Shown here piece by piece: positions 6,828 through 49,727 of a stretch of 50,078 nt of DNA. Source of the DNA: Prevotella sp. Its GTDB lineage: Bacteria; Bacteroidota; Bacteroidia; Bacteroidales; Bacteroidaceae. The stretch is taken from positions 1 to 50,078 of the forward strand of contig JAFTFX010000016.1 in NCBI GenBank assembly GCA_017458225.1, in the 5' to 3' direction. Positions within the stretch are counted from its first letter, which is position 1, and each line of letters opens with the position of its first letter. The notes under the pieces are model-generated. The model had not been told where the DNA came from. It ran no database searches and saw only the letters and a list, made by a program, of their open reading frames with translations. Position numbers and translations under genes: made by a program.

Positions 6828-6856
6828 CTGACGGGCATTTTGTTTGAAAAAATGTG

Positions 6857-6864
6857 TAACTTTG
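6857..6864 (+). promoter_or_regulatory. -7 box for the SpmAB fusion gene
   Basis: TAACTTTG, 24 bases before the ATG at 6889. Confidence 0.55.
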
Positions 6865-6888
6865 CACCCCGTCAACATACAACTCACT

Positions 6889-8121
6889 ATGGTACTGAAC
6901 TATATTTGGATAGCTTTTTTCCTTGTGGCATTCGTCATTGCCCTGGTGCGACTGGTCTTCATGGGCGACTTCGACGTGTTCCCGGCCATGATGGATTCGA
7001 CGTTTTCTTCGTCGAAGACGGCCTTCGAGATTTCGCTCGGCCTGACCGGCGTGCTGTCGCTGTGGCTGGGCATCATGAAGATTGGCGAGAAGGGCGGACT
7101 GGTCAACATGCTGGCGCGCGTGCTCAGCCCCGTCTTTGTGCGCCTGTTTCCCGACATTCCGAAGGGTCACCCCGTCACGGGCAGCATCTTTATGAACGTG
7201 GCTGCCAACATGCTGGGTCTCGACAATGCCGCCACGCCGCTGGGCCTGAAGGCCATGGAGCAGCTGCAAGAGCTGAACCCCAAGAAGGACACAGCCACCA
7301 ACCCGATGATTATGTTCCTGGTGCTGAACACCAGCGGACTGACGCTCATCCCCATCTCCATCATGGTCTATCGTGCACAGATGGGTGCCGCGCAGCCCAC
7401 CGACATCTTCATCCCCATCCTGCTGGCCACGTTCTTCTCCACCCTGGCCGGCATCATCATCACCTCGCTCTATCAACGCATCAATCTGCTGAACCGCACC
7501 CTGCTGCTGACGCTGGGCGGTGCCTGTCTGCTCATCACCACCATCATCTGGGGCTTCGGACAGTTGGACTCGCTGATGATGAACCGCGTGAGCACCACCG
7601 TAGCCAACACGCTGCTGATGGCAATAATCGTCGGTTTCATCGTGGCCGGCATGCGCAAACGGGTGAACGTCTACGATGCCTTCATCGAAGGAGCAAAAGA
7701 GGGCTTTCAGACGGCTGTACGCATCATTCCCTATCTAGTGGCCATCCTCGTTGGAATCGGTGTTTTTCGCGCCTCGGGGGCGATGGACATGCTCATCAGC
7801 GGCATCGGTTCGGTGATCGAAGCCAGTGGCTTCGATTCAGAGTGGGTGGCCGCCCTGCCCACGGCGCTCATGAAGCCCCTCTCGGGCAGCGGGGCACGCG
7901 GCATGATGGTCGACGCGATGACCACCTACGGGGCCGACTCGTTCGTGGGCCGGCTGTCGTGCATCTTCCAAGGGTCTACCGACACCACGTTCTACATTCT
8001 GGCCGTCTACTTCGGCTCCGTGGGCGTTCGCTACACGCGCCATGCCGTGGCCTGCGGTCTGCTGGCCGATCTGGCCGGCATCATCGCCGCTGTCGCCATC
8101 TGCTATCTGTTCTTCAGTTAG
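6889..8121 (+). CDS. SpmA-SpmB fusion, nucleoside-recognition (Gate) membrane protein
   Basis: A 410-residue polytopic membrane protein of the spore-maturation A/B type. The SpmA-like half holds GSIFMNVAANMLGLDNAATP (about 100-119), the family's conserved Asn/Asp-rich stretch, and NPMIMFLVLNTSGLTLIP. The SpmB-like half starts near residue 245 with DAFIEGAKEGFQTAVRIIP and has GSGARGMMVD and FQGSTDTTFYILAVYFGSVG. In Bacillus SpmA and SpmB are separate; here they are fused, as is usual in Bacteroidota, which do not sporulate, so the transported solute is unknown. The ATG at 6889 is preferred over the upstream TTG at 6844, which lies before the -7 box. Confidence 0.87.
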   Translation: MVLNYIWIAFFLVAFVIALVRLVFMGDFDVFPAMMDSTFSSSKTAFEISLGLTGVLSLWLGIMKIGEKGGLVNMLARVLSPVFVRLFPDIPKGHPVTGSIFMNVAANMLGLDNAATPLGLKAMEQLQELNPKKDTATNPMIMFLVLNTSGLTLIPISIMVYRAQMGAAQPTDIFIPILLATFFSTLAGIIITSLYQRINLLNRTLLLTLGGACLLITTIIWGFGQLDSLMMNRVSTTVANTLLMAIIVGFIVAGMRKRVNVYDAFIEGAKEGFQTAVRIIPYLVAILVGIGVFRASGAMDMLISGIGSVIEASGFDSEWVAALPTALMKPLSGSGARGMMVDAMTTYGADSFVGRLSCIFQGSTDTTFYILAVYFGSVGVRYTRHAVACGLLADLAGIIAAVAICYLFFS

Positions 8122-8156
8122 ACCCCCTGAAAAGCGGCTTTTTCCGAAGGTTTTGC

Positions 8157-8305
8157 AACAAGCGTCAAATTACGCTCTAATTAACGTCAAATCTCGCTCT
8201 GTTTAACGTCAAATCTCACTGTGGTTTGATATTAATTAGAGCGAAGTTTGACGTTAATTAGAGCGAGATCTGACGTTAACTGCAGCAAGAAATGACGCTG
8301 ATTGC
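8157..8305. repeat. Intergenic array of seven 22-nt units with dyad symmetry (copy A)
   Basis: CGTCA cores lie on the + strand at 8163, 8185 and 8207, and on the - strand (read as TGACG) at 8249, 8271 and 8293. A degenerate core TGATA sits at 8227 in the - orientation. Spacing is 22 bases between cores of like orientation. A typical unit is TTAACGTCAAATCTCGCTCT plus two bases. The two arms can pair into a long interrupted hairpin. It fills the space between the SpmAB fusion and the flippase promoter. A homologous array lies at 49576-49727. Confidence 0.9.
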
Positions 8306-8334
8306 TGGAAAGGCCGTTTTTCGCGTTCATTTTT

Positions 8335-8366
8335 TTTGGTCAAAAGGAAAGAAAAACGTACTTTTG
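8335..8366 (+). promoter_or_regulatory. Complete promoter abutting the flippase start codon
   Basis: TTTG (8335-8338), 20-base spacer, TACTTTTG (8359-8366). The ATG at 8375 is only 8 bases after the -7 box, so the transcript should have a leader of a few bases at most. Confidence 0.75.
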
Positions 8367-8374
8367 CAGGCACT

Positions 8375-9823
8375 ATGAGTAAACTGTCATCTTTGGCCAA
8401 GGACACGGCCATCTATGGTCTGTCCAGCATCATCGGCCGCTTTCTGAACTACCTGCTGGTGCCCCTCTACACCACCCAGATTCCAGCTGCCACCGGCGGC
8501 TATGGTGTCATTACCAACGTCTATGCCTACACCGCCCTGGTGATGGTGCTGCTCACCTTCGGCATGGAGACCACCTACTTCCGTTTCGCCAACAAACAGC
8601 ACGAGGACCCTCAGCGCGTCTACTCCACCACGCTCATCGCCGTGGGCTGCGTGGCACTCGTCTTTGTGGCGCTGGTGGTGCTGCTGCTCGGGCCACTGAG
8701 CCAGCAGATGGGCTATGCCGACCATCCGCAATACGTATGGGTGATGGCGCTGACGGTGGCCATCGATGCCTTCCTGTGCATACCCTTTGCCTACCTGCGC
8801 CAGCAGAAGAAGGCCCTGAAATTTGCCACGCTGAAACTGCTGAACATCCTGCTCACCATCCTGCTGAACATCATTTACTTCGCCTGGATGGGCGGCAAGG
8901 ACGTGGGCTACGCCTTCTACATCAACCTGGCGTGCACGGTCATGCTCGCACTCAGCATGGTGAAGGAGCTGACGGGCTTCCGCTATGTGCTCGACCGACC
9001 GCTGCTGCGCCGCATGCTCAGCTACTCGTGGCCCATCCTGGTGCTGGGCATTGCCGGCATTCTGAACCAGACGGCCGACAAGATGATCTTCCCCTATATC
9101 TACAAAGAGGCCGACATGCAGACCCAACTGGGCATCTATGGTGCCTGTGTGAAGATTGCCATGATCATGGCCATGATCACCCAAGCCTTCCGCTATGCCT
9201 ACGAACCCATCGTGTTCGCCGGCGTAAAAGACAAAGACCAGAAGGACATGTACGCCAAGGCCATGAAGTACTTCATCATCTTCACCCTGCTGGCCTTCCT
9301 GATGGTGATGGCCTATCTCGACCTGCTGAAGCACCTCATCGGCAACGACTACTGGGAAGGACTGCGCGTGGTGCCTATCGTCATGGCAGCCGAGATCATG
9401 ATGGGCATCTACTTCAACCTGTCGTTCTGGTATAAAGTGATCGACCGCACCATCTGGGGAGCCGTCTTCTCCGGCATTGGCTGCGCCGTGCTGCTGCTGA
9501 TCAACTTCATCTTCGTGCCGCGCTACGGCTATATGGCCTGCGCATGGGGCGGCTTTGCCGGCTACGGCGTGGCCATGATCACGTCGTATGTGGTCGGCCA
9601 GAAATACTACCCCATACGCTATCCCCTGCAGAGCATCGCCTACTACGTGCTGCTGGCAGCCGTCAGCTACATCTCCATGGACTATGTGCACGACCGCTAC
9701 AACCAGTGGATCTCGCTGGCCTTCAACACGTTAGTGGTGTTGTTCTTCCTCAGCATCATCGTGCACAACGAACTGCCGCTCAGCAAACTGCCCGTCATCG
9801 GGAAATACTTCAGAAATCATTAA
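8375..9823 (+). CDS. Wzx-like polysaccharide flippase
   Basis: A 482-residue membrane protein with 12-14 predicted transmembrane segments, of the MOP/MATE-like polysaccharide biosynthesis export type. The N-terminus (DTAIYGLSSIIGRFLNYLLV, PLYTTQI) and GYGVITNVYAY are characteristic, as is the internal YSWPILVLGIAGILNQTADK. Such proteins flip lipid-linked oligosaccharides across the inner membrane. It is not inside the polysaccharide cluster at 31-49 kb, which has no flippase of its own in this window, so it could serve that or another glycan; this is inference. The ATG at 8375 was chosen because an upstream TTG at 8336 would fall inside the promoter. Confidence 0.85.
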   Translation: MSKLSSLAKDTAIYGLSSIIGRFLNYLLVPLYTTQIPAATGGYGVITNVYAYTALVMVLLTFGMETTYFRFANKQHEDPQRVYSTTLIAVGCVALVFVALVVLLLGPLSQQMGYADHPQYVWVMALTVAIDAFLCIPFAYLRQQKKALKFATLKLLNILLTILLNIIYFAWMGGKDVGYAFYINLACTVMLALSMVKELTGFRYVLDRPLLRRMLSYSWPILVLGIAGILNQTADKMIFPYIYKEADMQTQLGIYGACVKIAMIMAMITQAFRYAYEPIVFAGVKDKDQKDMYAKAMKYFIIFTLLAFLMVMAYLDLLKHLIGNDYWEGLRVVPIVMAAEIMMGIYFNLSFWYKVIDRTIWGAVFSGIGCAVLLLINFIFVPRYGYMACAWGGFAGYGVAMITSYVVGQKYYPIRYPLQSIAYYVLLAAVSYISMDYVHDRYNQWISLAFNTLVVLFFLSIIVHNELPLSKLPVIGKYFRNH

Positions 9824-9903
9824 AAAATGATTAAGAGGTCATTAAATTGATATGTTTAAACTTTTTTAACTCTAATATAAATAAGGTGTGTTCCGATTTT
9901 CAC

Positions 9904-15579: not shown

Positions 15580-15623
15580 TGAAGATTCTGTTTATTTCTT
15601 GTGAAGATTCTGTTTATTTCTTG
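15580..15623 (-). repeat. 22-bp tandem duplication over a stop codon
   Basis: Two exact 22-bp copies (15580-15601, 15602-15623), each TGAAGATTCTGTTTATTTCT plus TG. The right-hand copy contains the stop codon and last codons of the amidotransferase-dipeptidase gene, so its 3' end has been duplicated into the spacer. Confidence 0.85.
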
Positions 15624-17443
15624 TTTTGTTGCACCTGCTGCATGACGCGCAGGAAGTTGCCACCCCAGATTTTCTGGATGTCCTGCTCGCTGTAGCGGCG
15701 CTGCAGCAGCTGACGGGTGAAGAGGGTCAGCTCGCTGGCATCGGCCAATCCGCGCACGCCGCCGTCGCCGTCGAAGTCGGTGCCTAAGCCCACATGGTCG
15801 ATGCCCATCACCTGAATGGCATGGTCCAGATGGCGCATGGCATCGAGGATGGACGCTTCAGAAGGCCCTTGGCTGTCTTTCACCAGAAAGCCATGATAGA
15901 GCGTGATCTGGCACACACCGCCCTTTTGGGCAAGAGCGCGCATCTGGTCGTCGGTCAGGTTACGCGGATGATCGCACAGGGCACGGGCCGACGAATGGCT
16001 GCACACGATGGGCTGTCTGGATATCTGCAGCGCGTCGTAGAAACTGCTCTCGGCAGCATGGCTCAGGTCGACCATCACGCCCAGCTCGTTCATCTTTCTG
16101 ATTACCTTGGCCCCTAATGGACTCACGCCGCCGTGGGTCTGCGATCCGCGTGCCGAGTCGCACAGGTCGTTGTCGCCGTTATGGCAGAGCGTGATATAGA
16201 CCACACCCAGTTCCTGGAAGTAGCGCACGTTGCGCACATTGCCCTCCAGAGCCAGTCCATTCTCAATGCCCAGCATGATGCTCTTGCGCCCGGCCAGCTT
16301 GTTCTGCCAGAGCTCGTCGGGGGTGCGAGCCAAGGCCACATAGTCGCTGTTTTGGGCCACAATGTCTTCTATCTTGCTGAAGATAAGGTCGGCGTATGCC
16401 TTGGGGCCCGACACGTTGAAGGGTGCAATCTGCTGGAATGTTTCGCCCTCCTTGGGCTGCGGCAGATAGCACACCATGATGGTGCCGTCGAGACGACCCT
16501 CGGTCATCTTCGGCAGGTCAACGAGAATCTTTTCGTCACGGGTTCTGAAATCTACGTTCTGCGGAAAGAACATCGGGGTGTCGCAGTGGGTGTCGAGCGA
16601 CAGAATGCGGTCGTGCAACTGCTGTGCCTCGCGGTAGGAACGGGCCTCGCTGACCAGCCAGCGGAACAGCGGCTGCTGGTCGTAGCCCATGCACTCCGGA
16701 TGCCACTGCACACCGATGAACGGCTTCTCTTCGGCACTCTCGATGGCCTCAATGATGCCGTCGTTGGCGCGGGCTGCCACACGGAAGTGCGGCCCGGGCT
16801 CGCTGACCGCCTGATGGTGGAAGGAGTTGACGGGCATCACCACATTTGCCAAGGCATCGCAAGGCATGAAAAGACCATGGTCGCGCGTGTATATATTATA
16901 TAAGGTGGAGTCGGGCTCGAGGGTAACGGTGTGGGTGGGCTCTGAGCGGTCGGCATCTTGCGAGTGCTTGACGGCCTTTGCCCCCTGTTCGTTTTCATAA
17001 ACCACTGAAAGATCCTGTGCCACCCGTCCGCCCAGTGCTATGGCCATGGTCTGAATGCCACGGCAGATGCCGAGGATGGGCATCTGCCGGTTGAAGGCCA
17101 GTCGCGCAATCAGCAGTTCAGGCAGGTCGCGCTCGGCATTGATGCCGCCGAGGCGTGGCAGCGGTTCCTCGCCGCAATAAAGGGGGTTGATGTCGGCACC
17201 GCCGCTGAGCAACAGCGCATCAATACGGTTCAGTGCCGAAAGCAGAGCCTCCTTGTCGGTAGTAGGCGGCAGGATAACAGGTGTGCCGCCGGCCTTGACG
17301 ATGCTCTTATAGTAGCCCTCGCCCAGTTTGCAGGTCAGCTCGCCGTAGTTGCCGGTGATGCCGACGACGGGGCGCCGGCCTTTCCTTGGGAAGCCATCGG
17401 CATAGATGTCTGACAGATGACTGTCGAGATTGAATCGGTTCAT
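15614..17443 (-). CDS. Fusion of C26 glutamine amidotransferase-like hydrolase and M19 dipeptidase
   Basis: A 609-residue two-domain hydrolase. Residues about 20-265 are a class I amidotransferase/gamma-glutamyl hydrolase (peptidase C26): GGADINP, nucleophile C127 in GICRG, and QWHPE with H248 and E250. Residues about 278-600 are a membrane-dipeptidase (M19) domain: the metal motif DTHCD (284-288), an ENG glutamate, VDLSH, CSHSSARALCDHPRN and GLGTDFDG. There is no signal peptide, so it should be cytoplasmic. The pairing suggests cleavage of gamma-glutamyl compounds followed by dipeptide hydrolysis. It follows lrp by 28 bases and precedes the S46 gene by 73. Confidence 0.88.
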   Translation of the reverse strand: MNRFNLDSHLSDIYADGFPRKGRRPVVGITGNYGELTCKLGEGYYKSIVKAGGTPVILPPTTDKEALLSALNRIDALLLSGGADINPLYCGEEPLPRLGGINAERDLPELLIARLAFNRQMPILGICRGIQTMAIALGGRVAQDLSVVYENEQGAKAVKHSQDADRSEPTHTVTLEPDSTLYNIYTRDHGLFMPCDALANVVMPVNSFHHQAVSEPGPHFRVAARANDGIIEAIESAEEKPFIGVQWHPECMGYDQQPLFRWLVSEARSYREAQQLHDRILSLDTHCDTPMFFPQNVDFRTRDEKILVDLPKMTEGRLDGTIMVCYLPQPKEGETFQQIAPFNVSGPKAYADLIFSKIEDIVAQNSDYVALARTPDELWQNKLAGRKSIMLGIENGLALEGNVRNVRYFQELGVVYITLCHNGDNDLCDSARGSQTHGGVSPLGAKVIRKMNELGVMVDLSHAAESSFYDALQISRQPIVCSHSSARALCDHPRNLTDDQMRALAQKGGVCQITLYHGFLVKDSQGPSEASILDAMRHLDHAIQVMGIDHVGLGTDFDGDGGVRGLADASELTLFTRQLLQRRYSEQDIQKIWGGNFLRVMQQVQQNKK

Positions 17444-29647: not shown

Positions 29648-29662
29648 AACATGGGGATTTGC

Positions 29663-29750
29663 ACCGCAATTGCATTCACTTTGTACCACAATCCATACGC
29701 TTTTGTACCGCAATCCATACGCTTTTGCACCACAATCCATACTAAACATT
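29663..29750 (+). repeat. 22-nt-periodic array, ACCRCAATCCATACGC type
   Basis: Units start at 29663, 29685, 29707 and 29729, exactly 22 bases apart; the middle two are ACCACAATCCATACGCTTTT and ACCGCAATCCATACGCTTTT plus two bases. The first and last are diverged. No dyad is seen. It adjoins, but is out of register with, the TGCTT array. Confidence 0.85.
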
Positions 29751-49575: not shown

Positions 49576-49727
49576 CAATAAGCGTCAAATTGTGCTCTGT
49601 TTAACGTCAAACCTCGCTCTGTTTAACGTCAAATCTCGCTACAGTTAATATCAAATCAGAGCGAGAAATGACGTTAAACAGAGCGAGACTTGACGCTTAT
49701 TGCAGCAAGAACTGACGCGGATTGTCA
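49576..49727. repeat. Intergenic array of seven 22-nt units with dyad symmetry (copy B)
   Basis: CGTCA cores on the + strand at 49583, 49605 and 49627, and a degenerate TATCA at 49649; TGACG (minus orientation) at 49669, 49691 and 49713. The outer borders (CAATAAGCGTCAAATT at left, GCAGCAAGAAcTGACGC at right) match copy A at 8157-8305. With the tRNA terminator and the hairpin at 49791 it fills most of the gap between tRNA-Leu and 49938. Confidence 0.9.

Follow-up and report, generated by a model that had tools for sequence, protein, structure and literature searches.

An apparently mobile family of 22-nt arrays that reverse on an 11-nt lattice in Prevotella

Why should a short intergenic stretch of a Prevotella genome be built from 22-nt units that face one way and then, from the middle onwards, the other? 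We investigated this question for the array at 8157..8305 of a window of 50,078 nucleotides (the window being the whole stretch of DNA that was analysed), for which a first-pass annotation, made from the letters, had offered four readings: a terminator, an RNA-processing site, a protein-binding array or a non-autonomous mobile element. The genome analysed here, a 75%-complete MAG, is called G000 below, and G065, G016, G001, G203 and similar handles denote genomes of the genus.

Results

Two arrays of the window share one geometry

The array at 8157..8305 (array 1) and a homologous array at 49576-49727 (array 2) are both present where they had been annotated, and the strict 22-nt period and the inward arms were confirmed in each. 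Seven 22-nt units had been counted per array, where we found six full units and one 11-nt half-unit; of the three to four units read per orientation, three stands, the split being three/three in both arrays:

8159..8224, + strand: array 1 left arm, three 22-nt units (8159, 8181, 8203)
8225..8235, no strand: array 1 dyad, 11-nt half-unit
8236..8301, - strand: array 1 right arm, three reversed 22-nt units (8236, 8258, 8280)
49579..49644, + strand: array 2 left arm, three 22-nt units (49579, 49601, 49623)
49645..49655, no strand: array 2 dyad, 11-nt half-unit
49656..49721, - strand: array 2 right arm, three reversed 22-nt units (49656, 49678, 49700)

Identity at lag 22 reached 36/44 in array 1 and 35/44 in array 2, versus maxima of 25 and 26 among 1000 dinucleotide shuffles per array (best over lags 15-30). 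The repeat score of the window arrays was equalled in 0/1000 shuffles, and the arrays are thus far beyond chance. Their outer borders, annotated as the same, are so only in part: the outermost unit is often (T/C)AAGCGTCA after GCAA, but the borders differ among copies.

About 38 arrays in one genome

The annotated family exists, and G000 holds many copies rather than just two. Merging 73 pieces from a similarity search gave 37 arrays, with three matches of 15-21 bp excluded (one of these, L048, was fetched and holds no array), and one array found later brings the count to about 38. This last one, at C13:29382-29629, lies between terminal repeats and was missed by the initial similarity search. 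Two arrays, L029 and L047, are very similar to L025 and L042, and the later tests left them out. The description of the arrays as intergenic mostly holds, with 2/37 overlapping a called frame. The 22 arrays with gene calls on both sides lie between neighbours oriented ++ (8), +- (6), -- (5) and -+ (3), the other 15 of the 37 being without a gene call on at least one side.

A profile scan of the 37 loci matched the unit 218 times, including a few stray places of low score beyond the arrays. Same-orientation neighbours within arrays are 22 apart, or 44 where a unit drops below threshold, and the +/- switch is spaced 33 in 32/37 arrays and 55 (33+22) in 4/37 (L031, L033, L034, L043), with L045 having no switch. 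As 33 equals 1.5 units, these switches all sit on an 11-nt step, and the arms reverse on an 11-nt lattice in 36/37 arrays. Re-cut at the dyads, the arrays read as an 8-mer, 3 nt, the reversed 8-mer and 3 nt.

Array 1 is a lineage-specific insertion

The gene at 6844-8121 and the start of a flippase-like gene at 8375 enclose the following gap, which array 1 occupies:

8122..8374, no strand: intergenic gap holding array 1, 253 bp

The gene at 6844-8121 is present in 72/99 relatives at E<=1e-40, and the DNA of the best 29 of these was fetched for comparison of the gap. The gene pair is kept in 26/29 (in the other 3/29 the flippase gene falls outside the fetched flank), and the array is found in 0/26. 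The orthologous gaps measure 3-112 bp in 21/26, six of them being 3 bp, and 223, 479, 737, 740 and 836 bp in 5/26, with a best lag-22 score of 0.60 versus 0.87 for array 1. Array 1 is a lineage-specific insertion, and it possibly interrupts an old operon. The letters at 8359-8366, immediately ahead of the flippase gene, are TACTTTTG, which we take to resemble the Bacteroidetes -7 promoter motif.

Many arrays of G000 are accompanied by a 20-bp terminal repeat, TTTGCATACACTGCTGTCAC, with 38 matches in the genome and 0 for the reversed control. It lies within 250 bp of 21/37 arrays, where uniform placement would give 0.39, and 28/38 of its matches are near arrays. These 21 arrays comprise 13 with a one-sided repeat and the array inside, one with the array outside, two with repeats on both sides and five with a complete pair to one side. 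Close pairs enclose an array at three places, and on C13 the enclosing pair is 228 bp apart. The same 20-bp repeats also bound an element of about 88 bp without an array (L343, L344, L345). In G001, four arrays lie within a dispersed element that has 4 copies, 385-443 bp long and 88-93% identical, and two further arrays lie in a different repeat of 347 bp. Flanks are shared with another array in 15/35 cases in G000, 11/27 in G016 and 16/28 in JAGAON.

Several results count against MITE-like mobility. A search limited to the terminal-repeat pattern turned up no transposase with matching ends. Both window arrays, and 16/37 arrays in all, have no terminal repeat within 250 bp; the repeat, with one mismatch allowed, occurs in 1/299 genus genomes, namely G000; and flank sharing in G065 is 2/22. 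Target-site duplication, a criterion for MITEs, was not seen, as no offset had recurrent flanking k-mers in 35 G000 or 22 G065 arrays.

A 1.6-kb pair of terminal repeats at C3:15541-17155 (L044:1342-2956) encloses an array and a VapE-like gene (PF05272, PF12990), the one coding element seen between such repeats; the array is 38 nt upstream of the gene's ATG, and the reading frame ends within the right repeat. We considered a VapE-like protein whose upstream array would be an origin with iterons, and rejected it: relatives of the protein occur in 10/19 array-bearing genomes searched and in 15/20 array-poor ones, and are absent from G065.

Related species keep the lattice and change the letters

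The first-pass annotation had proposed a search of related genomes, and this indeed yields arrays in several species of the genus, with the 22-nt period kept. Each species combines the same lattice with its own unit. In G065 the unit is TTTAAAGCCAAATCATGCTGAG, versus TTTAACGTCAAATCTCGCTCTG in G000, and the switch has a single spacing in 22/22 arrays. G016 has a third type of unit, whose dyad at the switch is the other of the unit's two dyads; its 33 +/- switches, over 30 loci that include three second views of the same place, all have one spacing, and among its 11 short -/+ steps (<70 nt) nine share one value, one is 22 longer and one is off by a base. Two inward arms are thus typical and not universal, as several G016 arrays have more than one flip. 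From these three species, 64 dimers (of 102 listed) align without a gap, with C8, A9, C30 and A31 invariant.

A Blast search with array 1 matched only G065 among 148 relatives. A dimer sequence model at E<=0.01 matched 21/398 genus genomes, 13 of them with at least two matches; at E<=1 it matched 174/398, much of this being noise (these counts include G000, and 15 candidates were scored per genome). Among 197 other genomes across the order, with 32 candidates scored, 5/197 matched at E<=0.01, with one match each and none with two. Of the 27 loci fetched and viewed, several single matches lie in coding-looking sequence and are apparently due to chance, e.g., L147, L150, L153, L154 and L157. At least five matches at E<=1 were found in 17/398 genus genomes; arrays were seen at the loci viewed in 15 of them, the one viewed locus of G205 is without an array, and G347 was outside the viewing. 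In a lag scan (15-40) over 57 loci of 17 chosen species, lag 22 was best in 46 and not in 8, and runs of masked N made three unusable; the best lag-22 place differed from the model match in a few loci (L172, L155). Furthermore, an IUPAC pattern of four half-sites, which does not fit the G000 or G065 units, gave 75 stretches in seven assemblies, all Prevotella or Prevotellaceae MAGs, over an 84,980-species collection that possibly leaves out G000. Viral contigs scanned with two patterns gave 0 stretches.

The rigid helical phasing, and the spread of the arrays over many contigs, would suit chromosome-organisation sites, at which a partition- or condensin-like protein would act on tens of dispersed arrays. 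We regard this as highly improbable, given the patchy distribution (the 17/398 above) and array 1, the single site compared, which is not common to relatives.

The arms fold well in prediction and do not co-vary

Folded as RNA, the window arrays are predicted at -71.5 and -71.4 kcal/mol, with z -10.8 for both and 0/200 shuffles as good. This fold speaks for an RNA-level element, that is, a long transcript hairpin acting as a terminator, an RNase III site or an mRNA stabiliser. Gene context in related genomes also points this way: the 57 arrays of the pattern set with both neighbours lie in gaps that are co-directional (39), convergent (11) or divergent (7), versus 78, 17 and 30 control gaps, so that 50/57 versus 95/125 are co-directional or convergent (a further 19 arrays of the set are at edges and one is inside a called gene).

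The comparison of copies argues otherwise. The annotation had expected variation among copies to preserve the period and the pairing of the arms; with more than two copies at hand, the period is kept and the pairing is not preserved beyond the consensus. Nor do half-site pairs co-vary. Whole-arm complementarity within an array does not exceed that between arrays in G000 or G016 (p 0.39-0.86), except in one of six G000 ranges (p 0.038); in G065 this comparison is confounded because the arrays are not oriented alike, and same-array pairing came out below cross-array pairing. Adjacent 8-mers have no excess pairing save in G016 at the outer dyads (p 0.0007, 0.019, 0.020), a position that lies past the end of some arrays. 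At variable positions of 93 pattern matches, some overlapping inside one array, Watson-Crick pairs are at or below independence, the observed/expected values being 131/132.5, 100/111.1, 135/137.7 and 83/100.5 for the A-dyad and 46/53.6, 58/64.5, 42/51.4 and 60/61.3 for the B-dyad.

On the sense strand of arrays in co-directional gaps, G-U exceeds A-C in G065 (30/20, 8 arrays), as an RNA element would predict, but the ratios are 76/73 in G000 (14 arrays), 46/61 in G016 (9 arrays) and 59/126 in 48 pattern matches, and G-U is not consistently favoured over A-C across the four sets. No terminator-like site was detected within 8100-8400, and Rfam at gathering scores returned only a tRNA over the whole window. 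A strong RNA fold that does not co-vary gives no support to selection for the hairpin, and we rejected a hairpin selected in transcripts because the pairs do not co-vary and the sense strand has no consistent bias. The annotated terminator or RNA-processing site likewise found no support, the array being absent from the orthologous gap in all 26 relatives that keep the gene pair, and an RNA-level element is in our judgement very unlikely. A dyad consensus without covariation instead favours recognition as duplex DNA, and the dyads look like independent half-sites, as they would for a protein reading duplex DNA.

A wider 22-nt pattern in the genus

A third array in the window has the same period:

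29658..29742, no strand: 22-nt-period array, 3.9 copies, unrelated unit TTTGCACCACAATCCATACGCT, of the same kind by period alone

By eye, its unit is like the unit type of G427. Two-copy 22-nt tandem duplications of unrelated sequence also occur at 15580-15624 (100%, perfect) and 9803-9846 (77%). Such unrelated 22-nt repeats would be expected if the arrays were minisatellites made by a genus-wide, sequence-blind duplication process at an exact 22-nt pitch, with mobile elements as mere carriers and the dyads as secondary.

We sampled 338,509 bases from 20 genus genomes (up to 20 kb each, four contigs being shorter), disregarding the arrays. In this sample 22 was the commonest tandem period: it accounted for 11 of the 28 loci with period 10-40, spread over 7 genomes, and two more loci had a period of 44. 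A lag scan gave 11 places at 22 versus 0-4 at other lags of 16-30. A control sample of 354,653 bases, drawn from 20 genomes elsewhere in the order, gave 2 places at 22; two of its 18 tandem loci had a period of 22 and four a period of 23. Tandem repeats of 23 nt also occur at L374:8231-8298 and 9647-9736, in a different family of the order; their core (CTCACAAGCTTGTCA...) is dyad-like, and their period is reminiscent of the 23 nt of BrickBuilt (see below).

Many of these 22-nt units have no dyad, only 4/21 genus units singly reaching p<0.05, which suits a sequence-blind process. Taken as two sets (ten and eleven units), however, their dyad scores exceed shuffles (p 0.0025; 0/2000), with two units whose consensus is not 22 letters long excluded; the four units of the window are not above shuffles (p 0.85), and five units from the control genomes, 22-24 nt long, gave p 0.04. 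Perfect adjacent copies have only a weak excess at 22 (3 at 22, 2 at 21 and 4 at 14 in the genus sample), and open frames run across some of the sampled repeats, which may therefore be coding. Moreover, a duplication process leaves unexplained both why a single genome has roughly 38 copies of the same unit and why the switches are confined to the lattice. We thus consider it rather unlikely as the source of the arrays.

Comparison with described repeats

The operators of MetJ, Arc, omega and ParR and the 22-bp transposase sites of Mu and Tn7 have pitches of 8-11 or 22 bp, in tandem or inverted. The arrays are like these lattices and sites in pitch and dyads, by resemblance alone.

Porphyromonas gingivalis, which belongs to the Bacteroidales, carries BrickBuilt, the nearest described system that we met. 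According to the parts of its description used here, BrickBuilt is a MITE/minisatellite reported from P. gingivalis and P. gulae, multi-copy and intergenic, with 23-nt tandem direct repeats, predicted long stem loops, and a leader and tail with GAGACCTTTGCA-like inverted terminal repeats, some copies having one end or none (PMC4596501). The G000 arrays are likewise multi-copy, mostly intergenic and of near-equal period, the window arrays are predicted to fold into long stem loops, and some of the arrays of G000 lie in or beside elements with terminal repeats. They differ in the 22-nt period, the mixed orientation, the 11-nt dyad lattice and the occurrence in many species with a unit of their own; the parts of PMC4596501 compared describe direct repeats and no inward arms, and GAGACCTTTGCA is unlike the G000 terminal repeat, which has no match within 250 bp of the window arrays.

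Repeats of the REP/BIME/REPIN type, as described in parts of three papers (PMC6006769, PMC2817692, PMC3116915), are also intergenic, alternate in orientation and have genome-specific types, and the interspersed arrays of Prevotella could have been spread in the same way by a RAYT-like Y1 transposase and might serve the nucleoid or mRNA. The arrays depart from this type in that their dyads overlap every 11 nt and have neither covariation nor a consistent RAYT partner, and the unit consensuses of G000, G065 and G016 contain no GT[AG]G foot (GTAG/GTGG). Matches to Y1_Tnp lie within about 1 kb of arrays in 3/3 cases in G016 and 1/2 in G203 (a weak array). The G016 copies share flanks and are thus not independent, the Y1 gene on C80 of G203 is flanked by a different palindromic repeat, and the single matches in G000 (25.0 bits) and G065 (27.8 bits) fall in long frames. 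The lack of target-site duplication at G000 and G065 arrays fits Y1 enzymes, which leave none. With array-associated copies in G016 and one G203 place, and one weak match each in G000 and G065, we rejected RAYT as the general partner of the arrays, and spread by a Y1 enzyme seems quite unlikely. The Y1_Tnp genes of L093, L097 and L099 stand in an array cluster at 597-675 kb of G016, where flanks are partly duplicated, and two of them have, by eye, end hairpins of their own.

CGTC-tagged palindromic repeats, reported from five phyla including Bacteroidetes in the part of PMC3733652 compared, share CGTC with the G000 unit; they are single stem loops rather than arrays, and the homologous unit of G065 has lost CGTC or never had it. 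Parts of two further papers (PMC8040213, PMC5771137) served for comparison. No published description of this class of arrays was found in the literature searched, which mostly did not reach into subscription papers.

Discussion

The roughly 38 short dispersed arrays of G000 form an apparently mobile family. The reading that we tentatively prefer, although we give it a little less than an even chance, is that they are BrickBuilt-like, MITE-associated mobile arrays, the body of which is a helically phased lattice of putative DNA-binding half-sites. Copy number, geometry, insertion, terminal repeats, the G001 elements, the dyad consensus without covariation and taxonomic restriction were counted in its favour. 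Two of the four readings first offered, a non-autonomous mobile element and a protein-binding array, both fit.

Under the mobile-array reading, each 11-bp step would be a half-site for a putative dimeric DNA-binding protein, possibly a transposase or an accessory protein, which would bind cooperatively on one helix face. The half-sites would drift independently toward what this protein reads, and protein and unit would have co-evolved in each species, which would probably account for species-specific letters on a constant geometry.

A broader explanation appears possible but doubtful: the genus may share a dedicated process, or a fast-evolving DNA-binding or recombining protein, that writes and keeps arrays by geometry rather than sequence, at exactly 22 nt with two dyads 11 nt apart and free letters. 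The 23-nt BrickBuilt and the 23-nt repeats of another family of the order would then be a sister form.

Interspersed repeats are usually recognised by their sequence. Here, the letters turn over from species to species and pitch and symmetry do not, so that helical geometry seems to be what is constrained. Should this geometry be read by a protein, the arrays and that protein would form a new repeat-protein pair, in a genus of the gut and rumen; should it be written by a mutational process, they would reveal a hitherto undescribed source of exact 22-nt duplications.
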